A program made the position numbers and the translations under genes. This document shows, one piece after another, positions 4,338-64,000 of a stretch of DNA of 64,000 nt. This DNA comes from Gammaproteobacteria bacterium (GTDB taxonomy: Bacteria > Pseudomonadota > Gammaproteobacteria > Natronospirales > REEB76), in contig DATEHU010000026.1 in NCBI GenBank assembly GCA_035279405.1, positions 1 through 64,000 on the forward strand. Reading direction: 5' to 3'. Each line of letters starts with the position of its first letter. Position 1 is the stretch's first letter. The notes below the pieces were generated by a model, which was given only the letters and a program-made list of their open reading frames with translations, was not told the DNA's origin and ran no database searches.

Positions 4338-4449
4338 CCGTTCGCCCTGAGCGTAGTGCCGAAGGCACGAAGTCGAAGGGTATCGCGGGCCGAAATTTAC
4401 AGTGTTTCGACTTCGCGGAGCCATGCTCCGCTACGCTCAACACGAACGG
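4338..4449. repeat. copy A of a ~105-base mosaic palindromic element
   Basis: Outer ends are inverted repeats: CCGTTCGCCCTGAGCGTAG on the left and CTACGCTCAACACGAACGG on the right. Each half holds a small palindrome next to GAAGTCGAAG or TTCGACTTC, so the halves mirror one another around a spacer. A second copy with the same layout sits inside the MmeI-like gene at 43410-43512, and shorter half-copies (CTGAGCCCTTCGACAAACTCA) occur near 19550 and 37160. Confidence 0.7.
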
Positions 4450-4490
4450 TTTGGAATTTTGGGATAAGTTCCAGTAAGACCCTCCCTGAG

Positions 4491-7046: not shown

Positions 7047-7098
7047 CCGGGACGGCGCGGCAAAGAATCAACACAACGGATAATTGGAGAGGATATCC

Positions 7099-7821: not shown

Positions 7822-7842
7822 TGGCCGGCACGCGTTTCCAGG

Positions 7843-7896
7843 CCGCCGTCCACCACGCAGAATTCCACCCTTTGGGTGATGCCGCACGATAACTTG
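7843..7896 (-). pseudogene. fossil 3' segment of an alanine racemase gene
   Basis: The minus strand reads KLSCGITQRVEFCVVDGG without a stop. The intact Alr C-terminus encoded at 15591-16712 contains ELLCGITQRVKFGVVEEH, so 11 of the first 16 aligned residues agree. The DNA match is also evident (CCACGC.GAA.TTCACCC, TGGGTGATGCCGCAC). Nothing of the rest of alr remains. It lies between the FHA gene and the TIR genes, in the same orientation as the intact alr at the other end of the island, and so marks a recombination junction. Confidence 0.75.
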
Positions 7897-8282
7897 CAAG
7901 CGGGCATGACGCCCGCACGATCGGCGGCGGCGGTAATTCGAAGAGCTTGATCTCCACGGTGCATGCAGCGTGGGTACCAATCCGCTTGACCTATACTGGC
8001 CCTGTCGGTGAGCGTAACTTCCTGTTCCCCTCGTCTTCCAAGGTGTGCATAGGCAGGGTAGAGATGGTGGGGATGGACTTGGGGTTTCGTGCCTCGCTAC
8101 CATCCCTATCCCGGCGTGCCATTCCCAGGCGAGGCGCGGCGGTACCCCGTTACATGGTGTAAGCCCCCGGCTCGAATAAGGTGAAATTGCCGGCGTACTA
8201 CCGGGCGTCGCGGCACTACGTTATGCTTGAATCCCTCCGGGGGATTCTGGGCCCGATCCGATACAGCAGGGGTTTGACCGGC
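7897..8282. other. gap upstream of the TIR gene cluster
   Basis: About 385 bases with no supported gene. It contains a GCGGGC/GCCCGC hairpin near 7899, a TATACT near 7992 and a GAATCCC/GGGATTC palindrome near 8229. No promoter with both boxes in register could be picked, although the TIR genes must be expressed from somewhere here. An in-frame upstream start at 8181 would extend the first TIR protein by 34 residues, but its paralogues start at the later ATG. Confidence 0.4.
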
Positions 8283-10070: not shown

Positions 10071-11856
10071 CGTCTTCGTTTCTTACGCCCGCAGCGACAA
10101 GGCACGTGTCGTGCCGCTGGTGGCCGCGCTTGAAGCCAAAGGCTGGTCAGTGTGGTGGGATCCCGAGATCAACCCGGGCCAGGAATTCGACGACCAGATC
10201 GATGCCGAGATCAACGCGGCGAAAGCGGTGCTGGTGGTGTGGACGCCGACCTCTGTAGTTTCGCGCTGGGTGCGTGGCGAGGCCCGTGAAGCCGCCGAGC
10301 GCGGGATTCTGGTGCCGGTGCGTTTCGAGCAGGCGAAGCTCCCGATGGACGTGCGCGCGATCCACACGACGGATCTCGATAACTGGCGCGAAGATCCCAC
10401 GAGCACGCCCATGCAGGAATGCCTGCGCGCGCTCACGGCCATGATCGCCCGTACCCAAGCTGCACAATCCACGAAGGCAGCAAGCGTTTCCTCTGCCGCC
10501 CCGTCCGCGAGAGATTCCGCACGTTTCTCGATCTGTGTGCTGCCGTTTACCAACATGAGCGGCGAACCGGAGCAGGAGTATTTCAGCGACGGCATCACCG
10601 AGGACATCATCACCGACTTGAGCAAGGTCTCTGCCCTGCGCATCATTTCGCGCAACAGTGCCTTCCAGTACAAGGGCAAGAACGTGGACACCCCCAAGGT
10701 TGCGCGTGAACTCAAGGTGAGCCATGTGTTGGAAGGCAGCGTACGCAAAGCCGGCGGCCGGGTGCGAATCAACGCGCAACTGGTGGAAGCGGAAGGCAAC
10801 GACCACGTCTGGGCCGAACGTTACGATCGCGACGCCAGCGACATCTTCGCGATTCAGGATGAAATCTCCCAGGCCATCGTCAAGGCGCTCAGACTGCGCC
10901 TGTTGCCGGAAGAGAAGAAAGCCATCGAGCACCGTGGCACCAGCAGCGCCGATGCCTACAACCTTTACCTCATGGCGCGCCAGACCTACGTGACCAGCCA
11001 GGAGCAGGACGAGCGTTCGGCGCAGGCCATCGTGCGCCTGTGCAAGCGCGCGACGGATATCGATCCGGGTTACGCGCAGGCCTGGGCGCTGATGGCAACC
11101 GGTTACCGGCAATGGTTTGAAGCGGAGAAGGGGAAATCCAAGGACGGCATGGCCGCGGTGGAGCGTGCGCTGGCGCTCGACCCGAATCTGGCCGAAGCCC
11201 ACGCGGTCAAGGCGCAGCTGCTGCAAATCGAGGGCGATCTCGAGGCCGCCGCCGCCGAGACCGGCATTGCACTAAAACTCGCCCCCGAATCCTACGAAGT
11301 CAACCGCTCGGCCGCGCGCCTGAGCTACCAGCGGCGCAGGTTCGACGATGCGGCCCGCTTTTATGACCGGGCCGCCGCGTTGATGGAGGCCGACCTCAAT
11401 TCGCCATTCATGCTGATCAGTTGCTTCACTGCGGTGGGTGACGCGGCAGGTACGCGTCGGGCTGCTGAATTGACACTCAAGCGTGTCGAGACTGTGCTGT
11501 CACATGATCCAAATAATTGCACAGCCGTCGCCTACAGCGTGAGCGCTCTCGCCACACTCGGTGAGGCCGCGCGTGCCAAGGCAGGCATGGAGCGAGCGTT
11601 GCTGATCGACCCCGACAACTTCAATATGCGCTACAACTTCGCGTGTACGCTGAGCGTGCGCCTCAAGGACAAGGACGCCGCACTGACGATGCTCAAGCCG
11701 TTATTCGAGACGATCTCGGACGCCTTCCTGCCCTACGCCAAGGCCGACCCGGATTTCGAGTCGCTGCACGACGATCCGCGCTATCAGGCCATGGTTGCGG
11801 CCGCCGAAGCGCGGCTCGCAACGGCGCCAAAATCGCCGGTTGGCACGCATGGCTGA
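10063..11856 (+). CDS. TIR-domain protein with TolB-like and TPR regions (copy 2 of 3)
   Basis: 597 residues. The ATG at 10063 lies inside the last codons of copy 1 (CCATGGCTGA), giving an eight-base overlap and likely translational coupling. The TIR domain differs from copy 1 at only seven of the first 80 residues and keeps Glu73 in SRWVRGEA. The TolB-like block reads ICVLPFTNMSGEPEQEYFSDG; TPR repeats follow. The TPR half diverges more than the TIR half, for example FEAEKGKSKDG replaces LRVLGVGSDNG. That pattern fits a conserved enzyme fused to a diversifying sensor, though this is inference. Confidence 0.88.
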   Translation: MADVFVSYARSDKARVVPLVAALEAKGWSVWWDPEINPGQEFDDQIDAEINAAKAVLVVWTPTSVVSRWVRGEAREAAERGILVPVRFEQAKLPMDVRAIHTTDLDNWREDPTSTPMQECLRALTAMIARTQAAQSTKAASVSSAAPSARDSARFSICVLPFTNMSGEPEQEYFSDGITEDIITDLSKVSALRIISRNSAFQYKGKNVDTPKVARELKVSHVLEGSVRKAGGRVRINAQLVEAEGNDHVWAERYDRDASDIFAIQDEISQAIVKALRLRLLPEEKKAIEHRGTSSADAYNLYLMARQTYVTSQEQDERSAQAIVRLCKRATDIDPGYAQAWALMATGYRQWFEAEKGKSKDGMAAVERALALDPNLAEAHAVKAQLLQIEGDLEAAAAETGIALKLAPESYEVNRSAARLSYQRRRFDDAARFYDRAAALMEADLNSPFMLISCFTAVGDAAGTRRAAELTLKRVETVLSHDPNNCTAVAYSVSALATLGEAARAKAGMERALLIDPDNFNMRYNFACTLSVRLKDKDAALTMLKPLFETISDAFLPYAKADPDFESLHDDPRYQAMVAAAEARLATAPKSPVGTHG

Positions 11857-13651
11857 CGTCTTCGTTTCCTACGCCCGCAGCGACAAGGCACGCGTCGTGC
11901 CGCTGGTGGCCGCGCTCGAAGCCAAGGGCTGGTCAGTATGGTGGGACCCGGAGATCAGCCCCGGGAAAGAATTCGATGACGAAATTGATGGTGAGCTGCA
12001 GGCCGCGGCCTCGGTACTGGTGGTATGGACGCCGACTTCCGTTGCCTCGCGTTGGGTGCGCGGCGAGGCCCGCGACGGGGCGGAACGTGGCATCCTTGTT
12101 CCCGTGCGCTTCGAGCAGGCGCGACTACCGATTGATGTGCGTGCCATCCATACCATTGACCTCGACGACTGGCACGGGAACGCGACCAGCCCGGCGCTGC
12201 AAGACTGCCTCAAGGCACTGGAAGTCATGATAACGAGTTCGAAGGCTGCGCACGCAAGCGCCACAGCGGTCAACAACGCCCCGGCGGCAGCCGCAGCGGC
12301 CAAAGATCCCCGACGTTCTTCGATCTGCGTACTGCCGTTTACCAACATGAGCGGTGACCCCGAACAGGAATATTTCAGCGACGGCATCACCGAGGACATC
12401 ATCACTGACTTGAACAAGGTGTCGGCGCTGCGCATCATTTCGCGCAACGCTGCGTTCCGCTACAAGGGTAAGGATGTTGATATTCCTCAAGCCGCGCGCG
12501 AGATGAACGTGAGCCACGTACTTGAGGGCAGCGTGCGCCGGGCCGGCAATCGGGTACGCATTACCGCACAGTTGGTGTATGCCGAGAGCAACGATCAGGT
12601 CTGGGCTGAGCGTTACGATCGGGATGCCAGCGACATTTTTGCACTACAGGACGAAATCTCGCACGCCATCGTCAAGGCGCTGCAACTGCGCCTTTTGCCG
12701 GAAGAAAAGAAAGCCATCGAGCGGCGTGGTACGGACAGTGCTGAAGCGCACGATTTGTACTTGATGGCGCGGCAGATGTATGTGAGTGGTCAAGAAAACG
12801 ATGAACATGCAGCACAGGCCATCATCCGCATGTGCACTCGTGCTACGGATATTGACCCACGGTACGCACAGGCGTGGGCTTTAATGGCAATCGGTTATCG
12901 GAGCTTGCGCGCATTGGGCACGGGATCCGACAGCGGCATGACTGCTGCGGAGCGTGCACTCGCCATCGATCCGGGTTTGGCCGAGGCACACGCGGTCAAG
13001 GCTTACATCCTGCTGCAAAATGGCGATCCGGATGCGGCGGCTGCCGAAGCCGAAGTCGCGTTGAAGCTGGATCCAGAGTCCTATGAGGCCAATCGCACCG
13101 CAGCGCGAGTAAATTACCAACTCCATCGATTTGAAGACGCTATCCGGCTATACGAAAAAGCCTCGGCCCTGATGGAAACAGACCTTAACTCAGCAATGAC
13201 GCTAATCAGCTGTTACAACGCACTTGGAAACATCAAAGGAATGCGCCACGCAGCTGAGACTTCGCAAAAACGTGCTGAGACCATCTTGGCTCGTGATCAG
13301 AATAACGTCGGCGCGCTGGCGTACAGCGCCTACGCACTGGCGGCATTGGATGAACACGAACGCGCCAAGGCCAGAATGAATCGCGCATTGATGATCGACC
13401 CAGACAACTTCAACATGCGTTATAACTTCGCATGCAGCCTGACTGTGCTGCTGCGGGACAAGAGCGCTGCATTAGAAATGCTCGACCCGTTGTTCAGAAC
13501 GATTACCGACGGTTTCCTGCCGTACGCCAAGGCTGATCCAGACTTTGCGTCACTACACGACGACCCGCGCTGGCAGGCGATGCTCGCAGCCGCTGAAGCC
13601 CGGCTTGGCGCGGCAAAAACCTCTCAAACACCAGTGACCAAAAAGTCCTGA
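11849..13651 (+). CDS. TIR-domain protein with TolB-like and TPR regions (copy 3 of 3)
   Basis: 600 residues from the ATG at 11849, again overlapping the previous stop by eight bases (CATGGCTGA). The TIR domain keeps Glu73 (SRWVRGEARDGAER) but differs at QAAASVLVVW and EFDDEIDGEL. The TolB-like block is ICVLPFTNMSGDPEQEYFSDG with LNKVSALRIISRNAAF, close to copy 2. The TPR segment (RTLRALGTGSDSG-like) is nearer to copy 1. The C-terminus ends in SQTPVTKKS rather than the GTHG of the other two, as expected for the last copy of a head-to-tail array. Base composition falls slightly toward the 3' end. Confidence 0.88.
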   Translation: MADVFVSYARSDKARVVPLVAALEAKGWSVWWDPEISPGKEFDDEIDGELQAAASVLVVWTPTSVASRWVRGEARDGAERGILVPVRFEQARLPIDVRAIHTIDLDDWHGNATSPALQDCLKALEVMITSSKAAHASATAVNNAPAAAAAAKDPRRSSICVLPFTNMSGDPEQEYFSDGITEDIITDLNKVSALRIISRNAAFRYKGKDVDIPQAAREMNVSHVLEGSVRRAGNRVRITAQLVYAESNDQVWAERYDRDASDIFALQDEISHAIVKALQLRLLPEEKKAIERRGTDSAEAHDLYLMARQMYVSGQENDEHAAQAIIRMCTRATDIDPRYAQAWALMAIGYRSLRALGTGSDSGMTAAERALAIDPGLAEAHAVKAYILLQNGDPDAAAAEAEVALKLDPESYEANRTAARVNYQLHRFEDAIRLYEKASALMETDLNSAMTLISCYNALGNIKGMRHAAETSQKRAETILARDQNNVGALAYSAYALAALDEHERAKARMNRALMIDPDNFNMRYNFACSLTVLLRDKSAALEMLDPLFRTITDGFLPYAKADPDFASLHDDPRWQAMLAAAEARLGAAKTSQTPVTKKS

Positions 13652-13719
13652 TCTTCGGGTTGTCCTACAGGCTAAAGGCGAGATCCAAATGCCGCACACC
13701 GTTGCGTCCGGAGATAGGC

Positions 13720-15474
13720 GTGGTTGAAACATCGGGGCTTAAAGGTAACGACTCGGGTCCTCTGCCGCTCGTCATCGGGGTGACCGGGCACCGGGATCTC
13801 CCGCCGCAAGACATCCCGCGGATCCGGGAATCAGTAGCGGCTTTTTTTGCCTGCCTGCGCAGACAGTACCCGCATACACCCCTGCGACTGCTTTCACCAT
13901 TGGCAGAGGGCGCGGATCGTCTGGTGGCCAAAGTAGCACTGGAACATGGCGCCGAACTCGTCGTTCCCTTGCCCATGCCCGAGGTGGAGTATCGCAAGGA
14001 TTTCTCCCAGACAGTTTCCGAATTCGATGCTTTGAAAGCTCGGGCGTCAATCGTATACACGCTGCCACCGCCTGTCGACGCAGCAAACGAAGCTGCGGAG
14101 ATCCATGGTGCGCACCGCGATGTGTGTTACGAGAATGTCGGCTTCTACATCGTCCGGCACTCACAGCTGATTGTGGCTCTTTGGGATGGCGTTGCGACCA
14201 AGGATAGAGGCGGTACCGCTCAAATTGTGGAATATGCATTGTCGGAAGCAGCGGACACGTCATCGGCACTGCAATTTTTGACTGATGTCAGCTCCGGAAA
14301 GGCGGTGTGGCATCTCCGGGTACCACGATTGAACAGCCACTTGAAAAAAGACGCTGCAACGTTCCCGCAATACTACTCGGCCGTCTGGCGTTTCAATGCT
14401 AAACACGATCGAGAGCTGCCATTTACTGTAGCCGGCGACGGCTGGCCGAAATCGCACTTCGCCCATTTACGGTCGGTGGAAGTATTCAATGTGGAAGCAT
14501 TATCCCTCTCACCCGAGCGTATTCACGCAAGTCTGGATGTGCTGCTGCCACCAAATGTGGACGGCAAAACCATTGACCCGTCAGAACGTATTGTCCGTTC
14601 ATTTGTTGCGGCCGACCTGATCTCGGGGAAACATCAAAATACAACCTACAAGTTATGGAAGTGGATTTTCATGCTGGCTGGAGTGATGATCCTGGCGTTT
14701 GAAAGTTACGCGCACCTTTGGCCTCATGGCCTGTTGTTGTTGCTCTATCCGGCGGCATTCATCGCCATGACCATTGCTTATGCGATCTTGAACAGACGCC
14801 GGTTGAATGACCGCTTTATTGACGCACGCATCCTCGCCGAGGCGCTGCGGGTGGTGATTTACTGGCGCCTGGCTGGGATCCGGGAGAGTATCACTGATCA
14901 ATATCTGGGGCGGCATATCGCGGCCATAGGTTGGATACCGAGTGCAATATCGGGTCTGCTTGCCTTGCCAATGCCCGACGCCGAATTTGCCCAGCAACAC
15001 GGGCTACGCGTTACCGATCAATTCTGGGTTGATCGCCAGCTTAAATACTATGAACGTCAGTCTGTCCGTCAGGGCAGGCGTGTAAATCTATACCGCCGGT
15101 TTGCCGGATCGCTGTACGCACTGACCGTGGTGTTTTCGGTGTGCGTGGCGATATACGGGGTCATCGTGACGAAGCCCTCGCCGCTGCGTGACATACTGAT
15201 TTTGCTCATGGCCTCCGGCCCTGCGATTGCGGTGCTATGGATCGCTTATGCCGAGAAACAGGGCTGGGAGAGGCACATCAAGGAATATACGCGCAACGCG
15301 GTACTGTTTGCACGTGCACATGAGCTGATTGTCAATTTCGGAAAATCCAAATCATCGGCGAGCTTCCCGCATATACAAAAGGTACTGCTGGAACTTGGGA
15401 AGGAAGCAATTTGCGAAAATGCCGAATGGGCGGTATTGCACCGCGTGAAACCGCCCGCTATTCCGCTGGGATGA
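13720..15474 (+). CDS. SLOG-like Rossmann protein with four C-terminal membrane segments (SLATT-like)
   Basis: 584 residues from the GTG at 13720, which has GGAGA five bases upstream; a TTG at 13660 is also possible. The N-terminal half has nucleotide-binding signatures of the SLOG/LOG superfamily: VIGVTGHRDL (about 18-27), SPLAEGADRLV, LIVALWDG and GGTAQIVEYAL. The C-terminal half has hydrophobic segments at about 315-330, 335-357, 463-485 and 491-511, paired around charged helices (RRRLNDRFIDARILAEALR; WERHIKEYTRNAVLFARAHEL), resembling SLATT effectors. SLOG domains bind nucleotide signals and SLATT domains are predicted pore formers. Position directly after three TIR genes suggests a ligand-gated membrane effector. 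I do not recognise a named family. Confidence 0.7.
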   Translation: MVETSGLKGNDSGPLPLVIGVTGHRDLPPQDIPRIRESVAAFFACLRRQYPHTPLRLLSPLAEGADRLVAKVALEHGAELVVPLPMPEVEYRKDFSQTVSEFDALKARASIVYTLPPPVDAANEAAEIHGAHRDVCYENVGFYIVRHSQLIVALWDGVATKDRGGTAQIVEYALSEAADTSSALQFLTDVSSGKAVWHLRVPRLNSHLKKDAATFPQYYSAVWRFNAKHDRELPFTVAGDGWPKSHFAHLRSVEVFNVEALSLSPERIHASLDVLLPPNVDGKTIDPSERIVRSFVAADLISGKHQNTTYKLWKWIFMLAGVMILAFESYAHLWPHGLLLLLYPAAFIAMTIAYAILNRRRLNDRFIDARILAEALRVVIYWRLAGIRESITDQYLGRHIAAIGWIPSAISGLLALPMPDAEFAQQHGLRVTDQFWVDRQLKYYERQSVRQGRRVNLYRRFAGSLYALTVVFSVCVAIYGVIVTKPSPLRDILILLMASGPAIAVLWIAYAEKQGWERHIKEYTRNAVLFARAHELIVNFGKSKSSASFPHIQKVLLELGKEAICENAEWAVLHRVKPPAIPLG

Positions 15475-15590
15475 ACGTGGCGCTGACGGAGCCGTGACCG
15501 GATTTATTCCGGGCCGTCATCCACAAGATGCTTGAGCCCGTGACGGTCCAATGGGCGTACCGGAACCGCGCGTCACCTTTGTGCGCGCGC

Positions 15591-16712
15591 TTATTTGCTC
15601 ACAATGGCAGGAGCCGCCGTGTCCACGGCGTGTTCTTCCACCACGCCGAACTTCACCCGCTGGGTGATGCCGCACAACAACTCATAAGGGATGGTGCCGG
15701 CGGCGCGCGCGATTTCCTCGACCGGCAATTCCGCTCCCCATAACACCACGCTGTCACCCACACGCGCCTGTGGCTGGGTTTGCAAATCCACCGCAATCAT
15801 GTCCATGGACACCCGCCCGATCAGCGGCACGCGCACGCCGTTCACCAGCACCGGAGTGCCGTCGGGTGCGTGGCGTGGATAACCGTCGCCGTAACCGATG
15901 GCGGCGATGCCGATGCGCGTGTCCTGTTCGGCGCGCCAGTTGCCGCCGTAGCCCACGGTGTCACCGCGTGCCACGGCTTTGACCGCGATCAATTCAGTGC
16001 GCAGGGTCATCACCGGCCTGAGGTCGTGGTCGCGACCGCAGTGACCGGCGAACGGCGCCACGCCGTACAAGAGGATCCCCGGCCGCACCCAGTCGGCGTG
16101 GCTCTCGGGCCAGGCGAGCAGTGCGGCGGAATTGGCGATGCTGCGCTCGGCACGCAAACCCGCGGTGCTGGATGCGAAAGTCTCCAGTTGCGCGCGCGTG
16201 TGCGCATTGCCGGGCTCGTCGGCGCGCGCGAGATGCGTCATCAAACGCACCGGCCCACGGACCGCGGCGGCCGCGTGCAACCTTTCCCAGGCGGCACGCG
16301 TCGCGCCCGGTGCAAAGCCGAGCCGGTGCATGCCGGTATCGAGCTTGAGCCACACGCTCACGGCCTTGTCGAGACGCGAGGCTTCAAGCAACGCGAGCTG
16401 ACCGGCGTCGTGCACCACCAGCTCGCAGCCGTGGCGCGCCACTTCTTCCAGTTCCGCCGCGGAAAACACCCCTTCAAGCAACACGATGGGGTGCGCCAGG
16501 CCCGCATGACGGATGACCAAGGCTTCCTCAAGCGAGGCCACGCCGAAGGCATCGGCTTCCGAGAGCGCGCGTGCCACCACCGCCAGGCCGTGACCGTAGG
16601 CGTTAGCCTTGACCATGGCCATGATGCGCGCACGCGGCGAGAGCGCACGCACCCGCCGCAGATTGTGACGCAGTGCGGCCAGGCTGATGAGCGCGCCGGT
16701 CGCGCGGCTCAC
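15591..16712 (-). CDS. alr: alanine racemase
   Basis: 373 residues from a GTG that overlaps the dnaB stop (GTGA). PLP-binding Lys35 is in IMAMVKANAYGHG. The barrel continues with LKLDTGMHRLGF and MTHLARADEPGN, and the C-terminal domain has IGYGDGYPRHAPDG, RVSMDMIAVDL and CGITQRVKFGVVEEHAVD. The enzyme makes D-alanine for peptidoglycan. It is the last gene of rpsF-rpsR-rplI-dnaB-alr. A degenerate copy of its final codons lies at 7843-7896, across the TIR island. Confidence 0.96.
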   Translation of the reverse strand: MSRATGALISLAALRHNLRRVRALSPRARIMAMVKANAYGHGLAVVARALSEADAFGVASLEEALVIRHAGLAHPIVLLEGVFSAAELEEVARHGCELVVHDAGQLALLEASRLDKAVSVWLKLDTGMHRLGFAPGATRAAWERLHAAAAVRGPVRLMTHLARADEPGNAHTRAQLETFASSTAGLRAERSIANSAALLAWPESHADWVRPGILLYGVAPFAGHCGRDHDLRPVMTLRTELIAVKAVARGDTVGYGGNWRAEQDTRIGIAAIGYGDGYPRHAPDGTPVLVNGVRVPLIGRVSMDMIAVDLQTQPQARVGDSVVLWGAELPVEEIARAAGTIPYELLCGITQRVKFGVVEEHAVDTAAPAIVSK

Positions 16713-18112
16713 GAATAGGCTCCAGCGTCCTCAGGAATGTAGTTCTCGAAGCGCGTGTAGGCACCCAGAAAGGTGGCCTTGACCGTGCCGATGGGGCCAT
16801 TGCGCTGCTTGCCGATGATGATTTCGGCAATGCCCTTGGCGGCGCTTTCTTCCTTGGTGTACACCTCGTCGCGGTAGATGAAGGCGATCAGGTCGGCATC
16901 CTGTTCGATGGAGCCCGATTCCCGCAGGTCCGACATGATGGGGCGCTTGTCCGGGCGCTGGTCCACGCTGCGGTTGAGCTGCGACAGGGCCACCACCGGG
17001 ATACTGAGCTCGCGCGCCAGCGACTTGAGGCTGCGGCAGATTTCCGAGATTTCCGTGGCGCGGTTCTCGCTGGTGCCGGGCACATGCATGAGCTGCAGGT
17101 AATCCACCACCATCATTTGGATGTCGTGCTCGCGCTTGAGGCGGCGTGCGCGTGCGCGCAATTCCGTGGGTGTGAGCGCGCCGCTGTCGTCAATGAACAT
17201 GGGCGCCTTGGACATGAGGGCGATTGCCGAGGTCACGCGCTGCCAGTCGTTCGGGTCGAGCTGTCCGGTGCGCACCTTCTGCTGGTCAATGCGCCCAAGC
17301 GAGGAAATCAGGCGCATGGCCAGTTGCTCGCCGGACATTTCCATGCTGAACACCGCCGTGGGGATGGGTTTCTCCGGACGGCACGAGCAATACTCGGCAA
17401 TATTGATGGCAAACGCGCTTTTCCCCATCGAGGGCCGGCCCGCGATGATCACCAGGTCGCCGGGCTGCAGGCCCGCGGTCATGTTGTCAAACTTGTCCAG
17501 GCCGGTGGCCAGGCCGGTCACCGGATTGTTGGCGTGCATCAGGGTGTCGAGCCGGTCCACGGCCCGGGACAGCAGATCGTTGATCTGCACGAAACTCTGC
17601 TTGAGGCGCCCGCGGCTTTCCGCGATCTCGAACACCTGGCGCTCGGCGAATTCCACCAACTCCTCGGTGCTGCGGCCCTCGGGGCGGTAGGCGGCCTCCG
17701 CGAGTTCGCCGCCGACGCGGATCAACTGCCGGAGCACCGCGCGCTCGTGCACGATGTCGGCGTAGGCGCGCACGTTGGCCGCGGTCGGCGTGTCGCGCGC
17801 CAGCGTCGCGAGATAGGCGAGGCCGCCGGCCGCGTCCAGTTGCTCGCGGCTCTGCAGCCATTCGGACAGCGTCACGGCGTCGAACGGCTGGTCGCTGTTG
17901 CCCAGTTCGCAGATGGCGCGGAATATCAGGCGGTGATCGTGGCGGTAGAAGTCCTCTTCCCGCAGCCGGTCGGCGATGCGCTCCCAGGTCGCATTGTCCA
18001 GCATCAGCCCGCCGAGCACCGCCTGCTCGGCTTCCACCGAATGTGGCGGCACGCGGATGCTTTCCAGCACCGCGTTGGCGTGGGTTTCGAGGGTCTTGAC
18101 GGCTCCCGGCAT
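16709..18112 (-). CDS. dnaB: replicative DNA helicase DnaB
   Basis: 467 residues from the ATG at 18112 (MPGAVKTLETHA); an upstream in-frame start would add 21 residues not seen in the family. The N-terminal domain has VPPHSVEAEQAVLGGLMLDN. The RecA-type ATPase shows Walker A AGRPSMGKSAFAIN, Walker B MMVVDYLQLM, and the arginine-finger region QRNGPIGT near the C-terminus. It unwinds DNA at the replication fork as a hexamer. It sits between rplI and alr, overlapping alr by four bases. Confidence 0.97.
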   Translation of the reverse strand: MPGAVKTLETHANAVLESIRVPPHSVEAEQAVLGGLMLDNATWERIADRLREEDFYRHDHRLIFRAICELGNSDQPFDAVTLSEWLQSREQLDAAGGLAYLATLARDTPTAANVRAYADIVHERAVLRQLIRVGGELAEAAYRPEGRSTEELVEFAERQVFEIAESRGRLKQSFVQINDLLSRAVDRLDTLMHANNPVTGLATGLDKFDNMTAGLQPGDLVIIAGRPSMGKSAFAINIAEYCSCRPEKPIPTAVFSMEMSGEQLAMRLISSLGRIDQQKVRTGQLDPNDWQRVTSAIALMSKAPMFIDDSGALTPTELRARARRLKREHDIQMMVVDYLQLMHVPGTSENRATEISEICRSLKSLARELSIPVVALSQLNRSVDQRPDKRPIMSDLRESGSIEQDADLIAFIYRDEVYTKEESAAKGIAEIIIGKQRNGPIGTVKATFLGAYTRFENYIPEDAGAYS

Positions 18113-55444: not shown

Positions 55445-57577
55445 ATGACCGGCGACGCTTTCAAAGACATCGAAAAGCTCGAAGCCGATCTCTGGGCGGC
55501 GGCGGACAACCTACGCGCCAATTCCAAGCTCACCTCCAGCGACTACTTCATGCCGGTGCTGGGCGTGATTTTCCTGCGTCACGCGGCCAATCGCTTCGAG
55601 GCGGCCGCGCACCAGATCGCGGCCGATCAGGCAGGCGGCAAGATGCCGAAACGCAAAGTCCTCCCGGCCGACTACATCGCGCGCCGTGCTCTCTACCTTT
55701 CCGAGCAGGGCCGCTACGACTGGATCATGCAGCGGGCGGCCGTGAGCGGCGCGGACCTGCCCCGGCTCGTCACCGACGCGATGACCGCCATAGAAGCCGG
55801 GTTCGAGCCGCTGCAGGGAGTCCTGCCCAAGGACTACGGCATTTTCGAACCCAGGGTGCTGGAAGACCTGATGCGTCTGTTCAACAGCGAGCAAATCAAG
55901 CAAGCCACGGGCGATGTCTTCGGCCGCATCTACGAATACTTCCTCGCCAAGTTCTCCGTGCAGAAGGCGCACGACAACGGCGAGTTCTTCACGCCGTCCT
56001 CGCTCGTGCAGACCATCGTCAATGTCATCGAACCGGACCACGGCACGGTGTTGGACCCGGCCTGCGGCTCGGGCGGCATGTTCGTGCAGTCCAGCCATTT
56101 CATCGAGCAGGCGGGCGGCGACACCGCCAAGAAGGTGGTCTTCTACGGCCAGGAGAAAAACCGCGACACCATCCGCATCGCCAAGATGAACCTCGCTGTG
56201 CATGGGCTCGAAGGCAAGATTGCCGAGGCCATCACCTACTACGAAGATCAGCACACCCTCGTCGGCAAGTGCGACTACGTGATGGCCAATCCGCCGTTCA
56301 ATGTGGATCTGGTGGACGCCGAGCGCATCAAGGGCGACCCGCGCCTGCCCTTCGGCCTGCCCGGCGTCAACAAGCAGAAGAAAGTCAGCAACGGCAATTA
56401 TTTGTGGATTTCCTACTTCTGGAGCTACCTGAGCGCAAAAGGCCGCGCCGGCTTCGTGATGTCTTCACAGGCTTCGAGCGCCGGCCACGGAGAAAAGGAA
56501 GTCCGGAAAAAGCTCATCGAGACCGGTGACGTGGACGTGATGATCTCGATCCGCTCCAATTTCTTTTACACCCGCACGGTGCCCTGCGAGCTTTGGCACT
56601 TCGACCGCGCCAAGCCGCCCGCACGCTGCGACAAGGTGCTGATGCTCGACGCCCGCAATGTCTATCGCAAGGTCACGCGCAAGATTTACGACTTTTCGCC
56701 CGAGCAGATGCGGAACCTCGCGGCCATCGTGTGGCTTTATCGCGGGCAGCGGGAACGCTTCCTCGCGCTGGTACAGGATTATCTCGCCCGCGTCTGCACC
56801 GAGAGCACGGCTATTCCGAATGCGCTGGCGCCATTCGAGGCTACGCTCGCCGGCCTGCGCAGGCATTTCGATGCACTCTCGAAGGCTGTGACGAAGCAGA
56901 ACGACCTCGACGCTGAAAAACGGCAGGCACTGGCCGATGCCATGAACGAACTGCGTGAAGCCGTCGCGCTGTACGAAGCTGACGCGAAGCCGCTCCTTGC
57001 GAACTTGGCTGCCTTCACCCAGAAGTATGCGAAGGCTTTGCCCCGCACGAACGAGCTTCAGCACGCGGCGCGCAAGGTATTCGATCCCATCGCCGAGGCG
57101 CTGCGCGGTCTCATCAAACAGGTGGACCTCGTTTACAAGCTCAGCGCGCGTGTTGCCGACCTCGCCGCCAATCTTCCCCCTCTCCCCTCGGGAGAGAGCG
57201 GGGGTGAGAGTTTCGATCGCCGCGCCGCGAACAAGCTGATAAAAGAACTCGACGACGCACGCAAAACCACCGTCTCGCAGTTGAAGCAGGCCGTGTATTT
57301 CCATCGGCAGGTAACTTGGCTGCAGGATCGCTTTCCGAACGCCGAACTCGAAGCCGTACCGGGCTTGGTGAAGCTCGTGGACGTGAAGCAAATCGAAGCC
57401 GCCGATTGGAGCCTCACACCCGGCCGTTACGTCGGCGTCGCGCCGCCCGAGGAAGACGAAGACTTCGACTTCGAGCAAACCCTGCGCGACATCCACACCG
57501 AACTCGCCGATCTCAACAAGGAAGCGGCGGAGCTGGCGGCGAAGATTCAGGAGAACTTCGAGGAGTTGGGGGCATGA
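55445..57577 (+). CDS. hsdM: type I restriction-modification methyltransferase subunit HsdM
   Basis: 710 residues, longer than the usual 500-550. SAM motif I is VLDPACGSGGMF (202-213) and the adenine motif IV is ANPPFN (281-286). NGEFFTPSSLVQTIV and GNYLWISYFWSYLSAKGRAGFV follow, as in HsdM. The C-terminal 260 residues form long helices that replace the short tail of classical HsdM. A CCCTCTCCC/GGGAGAG repeat is read through at residues about 577-589. It works with HsdS to methylate the site. It overlaps hsdS by ATGA. Confidence 0.94.
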   Translation: MTGDAFKDIEKLEADLWAAADNLRANSKLTSSDYFMPVLGVIFLRHAANRFEAAAHQIAADQAGGKMPKRKVLPADYIARRALYLSEQGRYDWIMQRAAVSGADLPRLVTDAMTAIEAGFEPLQGVLPKDYGIFEPRVLEDLMRLFNSEQIKQATGDVFGRIYEYFLAKFSVQKAHDNGEFFTPSSLVQTIVNVIEPDHGTVLDPACGSGGMFVQSSHFIEQAGGDTAKKVVFYGQEKNRDTIRIAKMNLAVHGLEGKIAEAITYYEDQHTLVGKCDYVMANPPFNVDLVDAERIKGDPRLPFGLPGVNKQKKVSNGNYLWISYFWSYLSAKGRAGFVMSSQASSAGHGEKEVRKKLIETGDVDVMISIRSNFFYTRTVPCELWHFDRAKPPARCDKVLMLDARNVYRKVTRKIYDFSPEQMRNLAAIVWLYRGQRERFLALVQDYLARVCTESTAIPNALAPFEATLAGLRRHFDALSKAVTKQNDLDAEKRQALADAMNELREAVALYEADAKPLLANLAAFTQKYAKALPRTNELQHAARKVFDPIAEALRGLIKQVDLVYKLSARVADLAANLPPLPSGESGGESFDRRAANKLIKELDDARKTTVSQLKQAVYFHRQVTWLQDRFPNAELEAVPGLVKLVDVKQIEAADWSLTPGRYVGVAPPEEDEDFDFEQTLRDIHTELADLNKEAAELAAKIQENFEELGA
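57174..57210. repeat. CCCTCTCCC-type palindromic repeat inside hsdM
   Basis: TTCCCCCTCTCCCCTCGGGA then GAGAGCGGGGGTGAGAG forms an imperfect hairpin of a kind common in proteobacterial intergenic regions. In this case it is translated as LPPLPSGESGGES within the helical C-terminal part of HsdM without breaking the frame. Confidence 0.65.
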
Positions 57578-58743
57578 CGACCGATGTGGTTCAGGTACGG
57601 AAACTACCGGATGTCGTCTTCTTTCAAGAAGGGCCTGGCCTTCGGGCTTGGCAATGGACCGAAGAAGGAATGAAGGTCATTAACGGTACGAACATCCTGC
57701 TTGACGGGACAATTGATGTATCGAACACCGACAAGTTCATATCTCAATCTGAGTTTGAGGCCCGCTATCGACATTTTGAAATAAGTGACGGTGACATCGT
57801 CTTGTCGAGTTCCGGAACGCTTGGCAAGGTCGCCCGAATCCGGGCCGAGCACCTACCGCTGATGATGAATACAAGTGTCATTCGCTTTTGTTCCAAAGAT
57901 CCGGAGACGCTTCATGACGGATACCTTTTCGCCTTTCTGCGGTCGCCACTTTTTCAAGCATTGATTAGGGCGTTCGCAGTAGGGGGCGTTCAGCAAAATT
58001 TTGGGCCGGTTCACTTGAAGCAGATTGAAATCCCGATCCCGCCATTGCATCTACAGCGAGGCATTGCCGACATCCTCTCCGCCTACGACGACCTGATCGA
58101 GAACAACCGGCGGCGGATGGCGCTGCTGGAGGACGCGGCACGGCAGCTCTACCGCGAATGGTTCGTCCGCCTCCGCTTCCCCGGCCACGAACACACCCGC
58201 ATCACCAACGGCGTGCCGGAGGGGTGGGAGCGTTGTACGGTAGCCAATCTTCTTGCGAAGATTGAGGCGAAACCGAGAGTGCCCAAGGAGGAATATCTGC
58301 CAGACGGCCCGATTCCCTGCGTGGATCAATCAGCAGAATTCATCGGCGGTTACACTGAAAACACTGATGCTGCATACTCAGCACCGTTGCCGATAGTTGT
58401 CTTTGGCGACCACACCCGCACACTGAAATACGTGGACTTCGAGTTTGCCCGTGGTGCAGACGGTACACAGCTTATCTTCCCGAACGATGATCGGATCAGT
58501 ACTGAATATCTCTACCTCGCGTTGAAGGAGATTGATCTCTCAAACTATTTTTACGCGCGTCATTTCAAGTACTTGAAGGTCCAGGAGATTTTTTTGCCGA
58601 AACGCTCGTTAGTCCAGGAATTCGGGACGTGTGCGAAATCGGTATTTGAGCAAATATCTACTCTGCGCAATCTGAACCGCAAACTCCGCGCCGCCCGCGA
58701 CCTGCTGCTGCCGCGCCTGATGAGCGGGGAGATCGCTGTCTAA
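57574..58743 (+). CDS. hsdS: type I restriction specificity subunit HsdS
   Basis: 389 residues from the ATG at 57574, overlapping hsdM by four bases. Two target recognition domains (about 1-150 and 215-345) are each followed by a conserved helix: EIPIPPLHLQRGIADILSAYDDLIENNRRRMALLE and the C-terminal TLRNLNRKLRAARDLLLPRLMSGEIAV. The first recognition domain is poorer in G+C than its neighbours, as usual for exchangeable recognition domains. It sets which DNA sequence is methylated and cut. Confidence 0.93.
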   Translation: MTTDVVQVRKLPDVVFFQEGPGLRAWQWTEEGMKVINGTNILLDGTIDVSNTDKFISQSEFEARYRHFEISDGDIVLSSSGTLGKVARIRAEHLPLMMNTSVIRFCSKDPETLHDGYLFAFLRSPLFQALIRAFAVGGVQQNFGPVHLKQIEIPIPPLHLQRGIADILSAYDDLIENNRRRMALLEDAARQLYREWFVRLRFPGHEHTRITNGVPEGWERCTVANLLAKIEAKPRVPKEEYLPDGPIPCVDQSAEFIGGYTENTDAAYSAPLPIVVFGDHTRTLKYVDFEFARGADGTQLIFPNDDRISTEYLYLALKEIDLSNYFYARHFKYLKVQEIFLPKRSLVQEFGTCAKSVFEQISTLRNLNRKLRAARDLLLPRLMSGEIAV

Positions 58744-58747
58744 CGCC

Positions 58748-61060
58748 ATGATCAAGAAGCTCATTAAGTTCCAGAATTTGGGCCTGCTCCGCGACGCATG
58801 TGCAGCGGGCACTGTCGACTTTGGGCGTGTGACGGCAATCTACGCGGATAACGGTCGCGGGAAGTCGGCACTCGCGGCTGCTATCAGGGCGTGCCAGCTG
58901 CGCGACGCTGGGCGCATGAACGCCCGGAAGACCCTTGATTCGGCCGATTCGCCGGTGGTCGATCTGCTGCTTTCGACCGGGGCGCACATTGAGTTCAAGG
59001 CGAATGTATGGACGGGTAATCCACCCGCCATCGCCGTGTTCGACTCAGAGTTCGTCGAGCAGAACGTTTACTCGGGATTCGAGATTCGGCCCGATCAGCG
59101 GCAGGCGCTACTCGAGTTCGCTCTCGGGGATAGGACCGTCGCATTGAAGAAGCAAGTCGAGCAGCTATCGCAATCGATCAAGGATCAAACAACGATTCGG
59201 ACCGCAGCAGAGAAGACGCTTGGGGGTTTGGCGTCTCCCTATACGGTCAAGGAGTTCATTGCGCTGCGGCCCGTGCCGGATGCGCAGGCACAGATCGACG
59301 CTCTGCGTAAGCACATAGAGGCAGCGAAGAGCGCCCAGCAGCTAGGCACTCGACAGTCCCCTGCCTCGCTTCAGGCTTTGCAGTTCGACGTGTACGGAGC
59401 ATTCAGTCTGCTGGGAAAGACGCTAGCGGACGTCGAGCAGGGCGCCGAAGCCGAGGTGAAAGCGCACCTCGCAAAGCACGCCCATCCTGGCATCGAGGCA
59501 TGGGTAAGCAGCGGGCAAGCCTATGCAACTGAGGACGACTGCCCGTTCTGTGGGCAGGCCATCGGAGGGCTGAGCCTAATCAAGGCCTATCAGTCGTACT
59601 TCAATGCGGCGTACGAAGGGCTGAAGGCAGACGTTGCGGCTCTAGAATTCATGGCAGCGGCAGCATTGGGTGACGCAAAGGTCGACGCCCTTGAAGCCGC
59701 TTACGCAACGAATGTTGCGCGGATCGAGGCGTGGACGGATCAGCTCAATCTCATCGCGCCAGTCCTTGATGCTGCCGCACTACGCAATGCACTCACTACC
59801 GTTCGGACGACCGTCCTGGACCTAATTGCCACCAAGCGGCAGCAGCCGATGCTCGCGGTTGGCACCCCAGAGGAACTGAGGGTGGTAGAGGTTGCCCTTG
59901 GCGCCATCAATTCCCAGATCGCAAAGTATAACCAGGAAGTGCAGGAGGTCGCAACGCAAATCGCTGAATTCAAGACAAAACTGGCGACCGAGAATTTAGG
60001 GATCTTGGAAGCGGCAATCAAGCAGCTGGAGGCGGCACAACGTCGGCAATTGCCAGACACCATCACCACGGCCGCCGCCTATGCGTTGGCTGAGACGGAG
60101 CGGAAGAAGTTGGAGGGCGAGAAGACAAAAGCTCGGGACCAAATCGACGCGCTCATGCAGACGACGCTCTCCCAGTACCAAGGTGCGATCAATCAGCTTC
60201 TGAATTCATTTGGCGCAGAGTTCGCGATCGAGCAACTGAAACCCACGTATGTGGGCAGTACCGGAGAGCCGAGGACGGAGTTCGACCTTCGGATCAGGAA
60301 CAAGTCGGTGAAACTGGGCTCCCGCGCCGATCTTGCTAGCGGGCACGGCTTCGCCAGCACGTTGAGTGAAGCGGACAAGCGGACGCTTGCCTTCGTGTTT
60401 TTCGTGGCGCGCCTCCGTGCTGACCCGAATCTCGCGGACACAATTGTCGTTCTCGACGATCCGGTATCGAGCCTGGACCGTAATCGTCGGCAAGAGAGCA
60501 AGCAGTTGATTGCGCGTCTGGCTACGGAATGCCATCAGTTAGTGCTTCTCTCGCACGATGCTTATTTTGTTCGCGATTTCCGCGACCGGCTGCGGGATCT
60601 GAAACCAACACCTGTTCCGCTTACTATCCTCGCTCTCAAGCGGGTCCAGAACGGGTACTCCGTTTTCGCGCCCTGCGATATCGATGACATGTGTTCGTCG
60701 GACTACTACTGGCATCACAAGCTCGTGGCTGATTTTGTTGATGGCAAGCCGTCCCCAAGTTCGCGTGATGTGGCGAAAGCGATCCGCCCCTTGCTGGAGG
60801 GTTACTACTACCGCAGGTTTCCGGGAGCGATTCCGAGGAAGCTCCTATTCGGGCAGATCGTCGCATTAGCGATCGATCCAGCGACGACTGGACCGTTGAT
60901 CAACATTCGCCCTCTTGCGCAGGAACTGCTGGAGATCAACGACTACGCCCGCCAGTTTCATCATGATACCAATCCGGGTGCCGATTCCGTTCAAGTCGTT
61001 GATAGCGAACTCTTAGGATTCGCGCGTCGCGCTTTGGCAGTGATCTACAAGAACGGATAG
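58748..61060 (+). CDS. AAA_13/RloC-like ATPase with zinc-hook motif, candidate anticodon nuclease
   Basis: 770 residues. ABC-type ATPase: Walker A YADNGRGKS (32-40), signature-like LSEADKRTLAF (539-549), Walker B IVVLDDPVSSLD (566-577), H-loop LLSHD (600-604). The middle is coiled coil with CPFC at 265-268, as in the Rad50/RloC zinc hook. The C-terminus has Arg680-X3-Glu684 and His738/His739 (YARQFHHDTN), the R-X3-E-Xn-H pattern of PrrC/RloC tRNA anticodon nucleases. RloC is often linked to type I restriction loci, as here (4 bases after hsdS). It would act as a second line of defence if restriction fails. The nuclease call is inference. Confidence 0.75.
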   Translation: MIKKLIKFQNLGLLRDACAAGTVDFGRVTAIYADNGRGKSALAAAIRACQLRDAGRMNARKTLDSADSPVVDLLLSTGAHIEFKANVWTGNPPAIAVFDSEFVEQNVYSGFEIRPDQRQALLEFALGDRTVALKKQVEQLSQSIKDQTTIRTAAEKTLGGLASPYTVKEFIALRPVPDAQAQIDALRKHIEAAKSAQQLGTRQSPASLQALQFDVYGAFSLLGKTLADVEQGAEAEVKAHLAKHAHPGIEAWVSSGQAYATEDDCPFCGQAIGGLSLIKAYQSYFNAAYEGLKADVAALEFMAAAALGDAKVDALEAAYATNVARIEAWTDQLNLIAPVLDAAALRNALTTVRTTVLDLIATKRQQPMLAVGTPEELRVVEVALGAINSQIAKYNQEVQEVATQIAEFKTKLATENLGILEAAIKQLEAAQRRQLPDTITTAAAYALAETERKKLEGEKTKARDQIDALMQTTLSQYQGAINQLLNSFGAEFAIEQLKPTYVGSTGEPRTEFDLRIRNKSVKLGSRADLASGHGFASTLSEADKRTLAFVFFVARLRADPNLADTIVVLDDPVSSLDRNRRQESKQLIARLATECHQLVLLSHDAYFVRDFRDRLRDLKPTPVPLTILALKRVQNGYSVFAPCDIDDMCSSDYYWHHKLVADFVDGKPSPSSRDVAKAIRPLLEGYYYRRFPGAIPRKLLFGQIVALAIDPATTGPLINIRPLAQELLEINDYARQFHHDTNPGADSVQVVDSELLGFARRALAVIYKNG

Positions 61061-61064
61061 TGCC

Positions 61065-61172
61065 ATGGCGATCACGGGTATCAACGATGAAGACCGTCTC
61101 GTCCAGCAGACGCGCGCGGACTATTCCTGTGCCCTGCCGCTGCGGTCGATGAATGGGGAGATTGCGGTATGA
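61065..61172 (+). pseudogene. hsdR'-hsdS' recombination scar
   Basis: A 35-codon frame. Its first 16 residues, MAITGINDEDRLVQQT, match the start of intact HsdR at 63345 (MITDINGEDRLVQQT). Its last residues, LRSMNGEIAV with a stop, match the end of HsdS (PRLMSGEIAV). It therefore joins the first codons of an hsdR to the last codons of an hsdS, with everything between deleted. It sits where hsdR would be expected directly after the ATPase gene. Confidence 0.75.
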
Positions 61173-61192
61173 GCGATAGCAAGAGAAGGGTC

Positions 61193-61390
61193 CTGGGAGC
61201 GCCGCGCTGGGGCGCGGCGCTCCCAATGAAGCAATGCGCGCTTCACGCGAGTCCAGGAATGCGGCGCCAGGGCGCCGCGTTCCCAGCGGTGCTCCCGATG
61301 AAGCGATACGCGCTTCGTTCGGCCCCACGAATGCTACGCCGGGGCGCAGCGCTCCCGGTGTGCCACTCCCGAGCGGGGCACTCCCAAGTG
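61193..61390. repeat. REP-like palindrome array ahead of the RAYT fragment
   Basis: At least three large hairpins: 61195-61224 (GGGAGCGCCGCGC / GCGCGGCGCTCCC, perfect 13-base arms), 61256-61283 (GGAATGCGGCGCC / GGCGCCGCGTTCC, one mismatch), and about 61330-61356 (ATGCTACGCCGGGGCGCAGC). Between them are similar spacers (ATGAAGCAATGCGCGCTTC and ATGAAGCGATACGCGCTTC), so the unit is about 70 bases repeated. The GGGAGCG core resembles the REP palindromes elsewhere in the window. Confidence 0.75.
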
Positions 61391-61402
61391 CGACGCTCGC
61401 GG

Positions 61403-61567
61403 GCGCTGTGGCAAAGGGATTACTGGGACCGGTATGTGCGTGATGAGCGGCATTTTCACGCGGTCGTGGCATACATTGAGAACAATCCCGTGGCTGCAGG
61501 GCTGGCAACGGAGCCGGCGGATTGGCCATGGAGCAGCGCCGCTCTCGGTGCGCAAGTTTCCTTGTGA
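61403..61567 (+). pseudogene. C-terminal fragment of a REP-associated tyrosine transposase (RAYT)
   Basis: The frame ALWQRDYWDRYVRDERHFHA followed by VVAYIENNPVAAGLATEPAD and WPWSSAALGA is the standard RAYT/Y1-transposase C-terminus, including the YIENNPV and WPWSSA blocks. The catalytic HUH histidines and tyrosine of the N-terminal part are absent; in their place the frame runs back through REP palindromes to an ATG at 61169. RAYTs process REP sequences, so the adjacency is meaningful, but this copy cannot be active. Confidence 0.85.
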
Positions 61568-61645: not shown

Positions 61646-61660
61646 CAGACGAAATAGTAT
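61633..61660 (+). promoter_or_regulatory. promoter of the abiE pair
   Basis: TTGACA (61633-61638), 16 bases, TAGTAT (61655-61660). The start of transcription would be near 61667, at or next to the ATG at 61668, suggesting a leaderless message. The earlier in-frame ATG at 61659 lies within the -10 box and would not be transcribed from this promoter. Confidence 0.6.
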
Positions 61661-61667
61661 GCAGAGC

Positions 61668-62468
61668 ATGAAACCCAGCCTCGGCCGCCAGGAAAGCCAG
61701 ATGCTCGCCTATCTCCAGATGCGTAGGCAGCGGCTGGTGCGCACCGGCGAGCTGACCGGGCCGCTGCGCTTGTCGCTGCTTCAGGAGCGCGAGCTGTTCC
61801 GGCGCATGGCGCGAGGCAAGCTCATTGCCCGAGTCCGTCCCGGCCTCTACTTGGTCCCCGACCGGCTCCCTCTCGGCGGCGCATGGACGCCGAGCGAAGC
61901 GCTCGCACTCGACGCCGTACTGGTGGATCGCAAAGGCTCCTATCAGATTTGTGGCCCCAATGCCTTCAACCGCTATGGATTCGACGGCCAAGTGCCGACG
62001 CGTGTTTATGCCTATAACAACCGGATCTCGGGTACGCGGGTCGTAGGTGCGGTTGCGCTGATGCTCATCAAGGTGGCCGACAAGCGTCTCGGCGACACGG
62101 AAACGGTAACCGGATCGGATGGTGTCGCGGCCCGCTGGTCGTCGCGCGCACGCACGCTGGTGGACGCGGTTTACGACTGGTCGCGTTTCGGCAGTCTGCC
62201 GCGCGCGTTCCGCTGGATCGAGACCGAATTGGCGAGCAAGCGGGTAAGCACTGCAGAGTTGGTACGGGTGACGTTGCGTTACGGCGATGTCGCGACAACG
62301 CGCCGGATGGGCGCGCTGCTCGATGAACTCGGCGCGCCGGCCGCAGCGGTCAATCGGCTCGCCCGCGCGGTTCCGGAAACACGCGGATCCATCGCCTTCA
62401 ATCCGGGCCGCCCCAAACGCGGCACGCTCAACCGGCGCTGGGGAGTGGTGATGAATGCGCTCGATTGA
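61668..62468 (+). CDS. AbiEi-family antitoxin (winged-helix)
   Basis: 266 residues from the ATG at 61668 (see the promoter). An N-terminal winged-helix domain (LRLSLLQERELFRRMARGKL then IARVRPGLYLVPD) is typical of AbiEi-type type IV antitoxins. The middle domain has YQICGPNAFNRYGFDGQVPT and YAYNNRISGTRVV; the rest is helical. It neutralises AbiEii and represses the promoter. It overlaps abiEii by 14 bases. The pair is inserted between the ATPase gene and hsdR. Confidence 0.85.
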   Translation: MKPSLGRQESQMLAYLQMRRQRLVRTGELTGPLRLSLLQERELFRRMARGKLIARVRPGLYLVPDRLPLGGAWTPSEALALDAVLVDRKGSYQICGPNAFNRYGFDGQVPTRVYAYNNRISGTRVVGAVALMLIKVADKRLGDTETVTGSDGVAARWSSRARTLVDAVYDWSRFGSLPRAFRWIETELASKRVSTAELVRVTLRYGDVATTRRMGALLDELGAPAAAVNRLARAVPETRGSIAFNPGRPKRGTLNRRWGVVMNALD

Positions 62469-63348
62469 TGCGCCACCAATCCGCCCCCACGATGATGTGA
62501 CGCTGTTCCGCGAGGCTGTGACCTATACGGCCGCGCAAACCGGTTTCGATCCACGGCTCATCGAGAAGGACTATTTCTGCTCCTTGGTGCTCCAGTATCT
62601 CGCTGCGCAAGCTCCCGGCCTGGTATTCAAGGGCGGTACCTGCCTCGCCAAGGTTCACGCCGGATTTTATCGGTTGAGCGAGGACCTCGACTTCTCGGTT
62701 CCAATGCCCGAGGACGCCACCCGCGCCGAGCGCTCGCGCGCCGCGAAGGCTGCGGGCGCCGCTCTGGCCGGCCTGACCGCGGCACTCGGAGTCGTCGGGG
62801 TTAGCGAACCTTTACGTGGCGCGAACGAGTCGAAGCAGTACGTAGCGGCATTGACGTACAAGTCGCTGCTCGATGGTCATGCTGAATCCATCAAGATCGA
62901 GATCGGCCTGCGGGAGCCCTTGCTGGAGAGCCGCGTTATCGGCAAGACCAATACTTTGTTGCTCGATCCGGTTTCCGGTGAATCTCAGCTGCGGCCGTTC
63001 TCGCTGGCGTGCCTGTCAGCGCGCGAAGCGATGGCTGAAAAAGCGCGCGCCGCCCTGGCGCGCCTAGAGCCTGCCATCCGCGACTTCTTTGATATTGATC
63101 ATGCCGCACTCAATAGCCGCTTCAATCCGGACGACAAACACCTGTTGGCGCTCGTCAGGCAGAAGCTCGCAGTGCGGGATACGGGTCCGGTGGATATGAC
63201 GCACGCCCGGCTCGACAGGCTGCGCAGCCAGATTGAAACGGACTTGCGCCCCGTGCTGCGGCCGGCAGACTTTGCCGGGTTCGATCTTGATCGAGCGTTT
63301 GCGCTGCTCTTGCGCATCGCCCGGGCGGTCGGAGCTGTGGGCGCATGA
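62455..63348 (+). CDS. AbiEii-family nucleotidyltransferase toxin
   Basis: 297 residues. The nucleotidyltransferase motifs are FKGGTCLAKVHAGF (58-71) and LSEDLDFSV (74-82), with FDPRLIEKDYF upstream, as in AbiEii/MenT toxins. This family adds nucleotides to target RNAs such as tRNA acceptor ends, or blocks growth after phage infection. Its stop overlaps the hsdR start (ATGA), so toxin and restriction subunit are translationally coupled. Confidence 0.9.
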   Translation: MRSIDAPPIRPHDDVTLFREAVTYTAAQTGFDPRLIEKDYFCSLVLQYLAAQAPGLVFKGGTCLAKVHAGFYRLSEDLDFSVPMPEDATRAERSRAAKAAGAALAGLTAALGVVGVSEPLRGANESKQYVAALTYKSLLDGHAESIKIEIGLREPLLESRVIGKTNTLLLDPVSGESQLRPFSLACLSAREAMAEKARAALARLEPAIRDFFDIDHAALNSRFNPDDKHLLALVRQKLAVRDTGPVDMTHARLDRLRSQIETDLRPVLRPADFAGFDLDRAFALLLRIARAVGAVGA

Positions 63349-64000
63349 TCACCGACATCAACGGCGAAGACCGCTTGGTCCAGCAGACCTTCGCCGAGCA
63401 TCTGGAGAAGGCGCTCGGTTGGGACAGCATCTACGCGTACAACAACGAGACGTTCGGACCGCAGGGGACGCTTGGCAGGGCCAGCGAACGCGATGTCGTA
63501 CTGGCGCGCGACCTGAGAGCTGCGCTTGCGCGCCTGAATCCGGAATTGCCGGAAGCAGTGCGTGAACAGGCGGTCGAAAAGCTGACCGAAATTGATTTTG
63601 CACGCTCGCTGCTCCAGCACAACCGCGAGTTTTACGGCTTTATCCGGGGCGGCGTGCCGGTTGAGTGGCGCGAGCTGGGTGGCGAAGTGCGGCGCTCACA
63701 CGCGCGAGTAATTGATTTCCGCAACGTAAGCAACAACCGCTTTCTCGCCGTGCGTGAACTGAAAATTCAGGGCGTGCGCGTGCCGCACTACAACCGGCGC
63801 GCCGACTTGGTGTGCTTCGTGAACGGCCTGCCGCTAGTGTTCATCGAACTCAAGGCTGTGTATCGCAATATCCGCGCCGGCTTTGACGACAATCTGACGG
63901 ATTACTTGTCTGAACACAGCATTACGCACGCCTTTTATCACAACGCTTTTCTGGTCGTGAGCAACGGCGATCAGGCACGCTACGGTTCCATCACCAGCCA
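63345..64000 (+). CDS. hsdR: type I restriction endonuclease subunit HsdR (partial, runs off the window)
   Basis: The first 218 residues are visible. The N-terminal PD-(D/E)XK nuclease has Asp154 (NRRADLVCFV) and Glu168-X-Lys170 (LPLVFIELKAV), then FDDNLTDYLSEHSITHAFYHNAFLVVSNG. The helicase motor lies beyond the edge. The start MITDINGEDRLVQQTFAEH is standard. It translocates and cuts unmethylated DNA with HsdM/HsdS. The ATG overlaps the abiEii stop by four bases. Confidence 0.93.
   Translation, partial: MITDINGEDRLVQQTFAEHLEKALGWDSIYAYNNETFGPQGTLGRASERDVVLARDLRAALARLNPELPEAVREQAVEKLTEIDFARSLLQHNREFYGFIRGGVPVEWRELGGEVRRSHARVIDFRNVSNNRFLAVRELKIQGVRVPHYNRRADLVCFVNGLPLVFIELKAVYRNIRAGFDDNLTDYLSEHSITHAFYHNAFLVVSNGDQARYGSITS

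Follow-up and report, generated by a model that had tools for sequence, protein, structure and literature searches.

What does a large ABC ATPase gene do inside a type I restriction locus, lodged directly behind the gene for the specificity subunit? The question is raised by a 64,000-nucleotide stretch of a gammaproteobacterial contig (DATEHU010000026.1; the window, by which the whole stretch analysed is meant), where the genes run in the order hsdM-hsdS-RloC-like gene-relic-abiEi-abiEii-hsdR, with all of these genes, and the parts of the RloC-like gene, on the forward strand. The type I DNA methyltransferase subunit, of 710 aa, is encoded at 55445..57577 (Pfam N6_Mtase, 7e-71, and HsdM_N, 7e-14; PADLOC MTase_I, 1.5e-241), and its gene overlaps by 4 bases that of the 389-aa specificity subunit HsdS at 57574..58743 (Pfam Methylase_S, 6e-18; PADLOC Specificity_I, 1.5e-84). 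Within hsdM, at about 57180-57230, there is an apparent small in-frame repeat-like insert that is absent from the hsdM of the nearest related locus (L019); its opposite strand reads LTPALSRGERG. A gap of 4 bases then separates the end of hsdS from the start codon of the RloC-like gene (58748..61060), an intact ORF that runs from ATG to TAG and encodes 770 aa, and this position suggests that the gene is co-expressed with hsdM and hsdS. Farther downstream lie an AbiEi-like antitoxin gene (61659..62468, 269 aa; PADLOC AbiEi, 4.6e-22) and an AbiEii-like nucleotidyltransferase toxin gene (62455..63348, 297 aa; Pfam AbiEii, 1.2e-28), neighbours that are probably outside the mechanism considered here. 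The start of hsdR follows at 63345..64000 (Pfam HSDR_N, 3.8e-37), and the gene is complete in the contig, where it ends beyond the window edge as an ORF of 1133 aa (13346-16747 of the extended locus L109). The placement of the ATPase gene directly after hsdS, and within a type I restriction locus, had been claimed in an earlier note on this DNA, and both points are borne out by these arrangements.

By family, the product is an AAA_13 protein (Pfam, 1.9e-44) whose best PADLOC model is PDC-S06 PDLC04895 (4e-69), and about 40 relatives were aligned. The ABC and CPFC motifs that the earlier note had listed are all present and conserved among the relatives: Walker A (GRGKS, residues 36-40; 58853..58867), a signature-like LSEADK (residues 539-544; 60362..60379) with S540 and D543 invariant, a Walker B/D-loop region VVLDDP (residues 567-572; 60446..60463) with D570, D571, and P572 invariant, and a switch/H-loop SHD (residues 602-604; 60551..60559) with H603 invariant. 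Secondary structure in the full-length AlphaFold model (pLDDT 85.8) indicates that the ABC head is divided by a long helical or coiled-coil insert of about residues 128-487 (59129..60208), with helices on either side of a zinc-hook-like CPFC (residues 265-268; 59540..59551) that is modelled as a poorly ordered turn near the middle of the insert. In an alignment of 36 full-length relatives, both cysteines of this motif (C265 and C268) are invariant, as are the core ATPase residues. The head of the model matches the heads of SMC, Rad50, and RecF with Z values of about 20-22, and Rad50 likewise has a CxxC coiled-coil insert, but the proteins of this group are without the HEPN-like domain found at the C-terminus here. 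A BFVD search returned noise only.

That C-terminal domain (residues 651-770; 60698..61057) is modelled with a pLDDT of 91.5. A plain Foldseek search with it returned nothing at E≤0.001; when the Foldseek candidates were re-aligned with VIA-align, the best PDB match was a HEPN protein of A. fulgidus (2hsb; Z 9.4, rmsd 3.1, 108 aligned residues), with the sacsin HEPN domain at Z 9.3, Csm6 at 8.9, several HEPN-MNT toxins at 7-8, and unrelated proteins at 6.7 or lower. Z values of up to 9.4 are moderate, and helical bundles may reach them through arrangement alone, so weight is placed on the agreement of the top rows and on independent sequence evidence. The best 18 rows (Z 9.4-7.2) comprise seven titled HEPN, two titled Csm6, four MntA-HepT-type toxin-antitoxin entries, and five small hypothetical or nucleotidyltransferase-partner proteins. 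The assignment of the domain to the HEPN-type fold class, an RNase superfamily, is thus supported at the level of the predicted model, and the nuclease domains of RloC and PrrC have themselves been placed in the HEPN superfamily (PMC3710099). Sequence searches of the PDB found no RloC or PrrC structure.

The sequence evidence comes from an alignment of 37 C-terminal domains of relatives, in which the only invariant columns are Arg680, Glu684, Gly702, and His739. The putative catalytic pair Arg680-x3-Glu684 (60785..60799) would be weak evidence as a bare RxxxE, since the protein contains that pattern five times; of these copies only 680-684 is conserved, and the invariance of R680, E684, and H739 across the 37 domains lifts the triad above chance. 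At the His738-His739 pair (60959..60964), His738 is replaced by Tyr in one relative (L065) and by Met in another (L066), so that His739 is the meaningful histidine and the putative catalytic one; His738 was rejected for that role. The earlier note had named Arg680, Glu684, and either histidine, and its proposal survives for all but His738. The canonical HEPN Rx4-6H motif was sought in the relatives' alignment, where no arginine is conserved 5-7 residues before His739, and the clade has Arg-x3-Glu instead.

How close does this bring the protein to RloC? As defined by Davidov and Kaufmann (PMC2610378), RloC combines ABC motifs, a coiled-coil insert with CxxC, and a C-terminal Arg-X3-Glu-X36-52-His in which the histidine is often preceded by Ser. 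Geobacillus kaustophilus RloC loses its anticodon nuclease activity when R692, E696, or H737 is mutated, and becomes more active when the zinc hook is mutated (PMC2610378). The protein shares with the RloC of G. kaustophilus and Acinetobacter baylyi the helical CxxC insert in an ABC head and the C-terminal Arg-x3-Glu...His; its 770 aa fall within the 658-897 aa of RloC, which is also occasionally linked to type I loci (PMC2610378). The earlier note had named a misfit of the C-terminal residues to the RloC active site as the result that would count against its reading, and this was checked on the alignment and the predicted fold class. When 12 RloC-type proteins were brought into one alignment without guidance, R680, E684, and H739 lined up with the catalytic residues of RloC, with H738 in place of the Ser. 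A profile comparison of the C-termini with RloC-type C-termini gave P of about 1e-5, with a gap placement that aligns the RloC histidine with H738; this shift by one residue is resolved by conservation, which favours H739. Clearly, there are also differences. The E684-X54-H739 spacing lies two residues outside the published X36-52, His or Tyr stands before the histidine instead of Ser, and in a midpoint-rooted FastTree tree the clade forms a deep sister branch to the 12 RloC-type AAA_13 proteins, a set that includes no biochemically proven RloC. The RloC layout proposed earlier (ABC ATPase, zinc hook, and nuclease domain) therefore stands, whereas the Glu-His spacing and the residue before the histidine depart from classic RloC. 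For these reasons the protein is labelled RloC-like rather than RloC proper, and the family matches, the conservation, the profile comparison, and the predicted HEPN fold together support this label.

Another ABC ATPase that could be considered is PrrC, a compact protein of about 341-416 aa without a coiled-coil insert. PrrC resembles the RloC-like protein in combining an ABC ATPase with an Arg-Glu-His C-terminal domain inside a type I locus, but it is about half the size and has neither insert nor hook. The PADLOC PrrC model matches the RloC-like protein at E 0.0026 only, and a profile comparison between RloC-like and PrrC C-termini was not significant; size, insert, and profile result all speak against a closer kinship to PrrC, which was rejected. 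A true PrrC does occur in the same genome, on contig 48 (375 aa; PADLOC, 2.1e-134), in a second, separate type I locus with the order hsdR-hsdS-prrC-hsdM (1184-8137 of locus L110). RloC and PrrC in one genome have been reported before (PMC2610378), so the co-occurrence is notable rather than new. The PADLOC family PDC-S06, for its part, gives the best profile match to the RloC-like protein and its clade, and ordinary RloC-type AAA_13 proteins are also best matched by that family, through other models. However, PDC-S06 is a candidate label without a mechanism, and the alignment to its best model stops at residue 695, before the His motif is reached.

Taken as a whole, the protein is rather likely to be an RloC-like defence effector, in which an ABC head with a hook insert is fused to an Arg-Glu-His HEPN-type RNase that stays silent until it cuts the tRNA anticodon loop. 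In this scheme, a Rad50/SMC-type head with its CxxC-hook helical insert would be joined to a HEPN-type RNase domain having R680, E684, and H739 as its active site. The protein would most likely be held silent by the hook and the ATPase, possibly under zinc control, until the head detects either damaged DNA, as A. baylyi RloC responds to DNA breaks (PMC3874168), or a restriction enzyme that has been blocked or bypassed, by analogy with the response of PrrC to restriction inhibition. Once triggered, it would cut tRNA in the anticodon loop and translation would halt, so that protein synthesis is probably stopped when a phage gets past restriction, perhaps under regulation by the type I enzyme. 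What the analysis shows directly is the gene order, the motifs and their conservation, the predicted fold class, and the homology to RloC-type proteins; the RNase activity, the tRNA target, the zinc control, the trigger, and the role as a backup regulated by the type I enzyme are inferred.

The settings of the relatives bear on how such an effector might be controlled. The relatives were drawn from plasmid records, whole genomes, one metagenome-assembled Burkholderiales contig, and phage-like contigs. A single-protein scan found one relative among genome contigs and none among viral contigs, whereas a profile scan of the viral contigs did find relatives; named phage records gave no match. The nearest relative, which is 74% identical, lies in the order hsdM-hsdS-RloC-like gene-ATPase-hsdR (L019), and a relative only 28% identical lies in the order hsdM-hsdS-RloC-like gene-hsdR (L064). 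Type III-like operons also carry the gene, as SNF2-mod-res-RloC-like (L119), SNF2-RloC-like-mod-res (L121), and res-RloC-like (L067). The position of the RloC-like gene within an SNF2 helicase-mod-res system thus differs between the two genomes of L119 and L121. In Methylocystis, the gene lies about 40 bases after a PaeR7I-type restriction enzyme gene. Elsewhere (L118, 7242-12809), a gene with a T5orf172/MUG113 domain and one for a DEAD helicase stand immediately 5′ of it, in what may be a further defence operon. Many other relatives stand alone, whether on plasmids or in phage-like contigs, and most are not beside a type I or III operon. Matches resembling hsd, mod, or res genes occur near the gene in 7 of about 40 loci, the window included, as against 1 of 12 ordinary RloC controls and a published type I/III linkage of 8 of 73 for RloC (PMC2610378), and neither comparison bears out a higher restriction linkage for the clade than for ordinary RloC. 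The differing restriction operons, set beside the solitary copies, point to modular insertion of the gene into restriction operons.

A more specific proposal, in which a separate His-His RloC-like clade serves unrelated restriction systems as a plug-in guardian, is speculative and rather doubtful. The gene would have entered type I, SNF2/type III-like, and type II operons repeatedly, and its product would be set off by inhibition of its host system. It is quite possible, if somewhat less probable than the effector reading itself, that the protein is a stand-alone sensor of DNA damage or phage that travels with restriction genes and acts independently of them; such a reading is about regulation and leaves room for the nuclease. 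The many solitary relatives agree with it, and in A. baylyi, DNA breaks activate RloC even without the R-M systems (PMC3874168). Against independence stand the 4-base gap to hsdS, the overlaps of the gene with both hsdS and hsdR in L064 and with res in L119 and L067, and the recurrence of the insertion in unrelated R-M operons.

The nuclease itself invites two further explanations. An ABC-HEPN RNase of RloC-like build might cut some other RNA (mRNA, rRNA, or other tRNA sites) rather than the anticodon loop, since general mRNases, RNase LS among them, also belong to the HEPN group (PMC3710099) and the setting of the active-site histidine is unlike that of classic RloC. This is unlikely, however, because Arg-x3-Glu with His is the mark of RloC and PrrC, and the overall architecture fits RloC, a characterised anticodon nuclease. 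Less probable still is an AAA_13 ATPase that has lost catalysis or is in decay. Decay of this kind is conceivable beside a relic of hsdR and hsdS directly downstream, and the L019 copy (8001-10310) is interrupted by an in-frame TAG and lacks one residue of Walker A, the result of either decay or faulty assembly; the ORF in the window, by contrast, is intact and retains all ATPase and triad residues.

The relic itself, a 35-codon ORF at 61065..61172 reading MAITGINDEDRLVQQTRADY...LPLRSMNGEIAV*, has an hsdR-like start, where 27 of 32 bases match the start of hsdR, and an hsdS-like end, a resemblance that is short and was judged by eye. Such a junction indicates that hsdR probably once adjoined the RloC-like gene directly on its 3′ side, and that a later rearrangement brought in the AbiE pair. 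In G. kaustophilus, rloC also adjoins an hsdR relic (PMC2610378). Beside G+C-rich palindromic repeats, the end of a further ORF (61169-61567) resembles by eye the C-terminus of a REP-associated (Y1/RAYT) transposase; a Pfam search with this ORF gave no match.

For the family, the effector reading would give an AAA_13/PDC-S06 clade, uncharacterised so far, a concrete mechanism that can be tested and in which the candidate catalytic residues are named. The clade also occurs in several independent restriction operons, which could show whether restriction enzymes control nucleases of the RloC type, as they do PrrC, or whether DNA damage alone does so. Finally, as PrrC and an RloC-like protein occupy different type I loci of one genome, two kinds of backup may be compared side by side.
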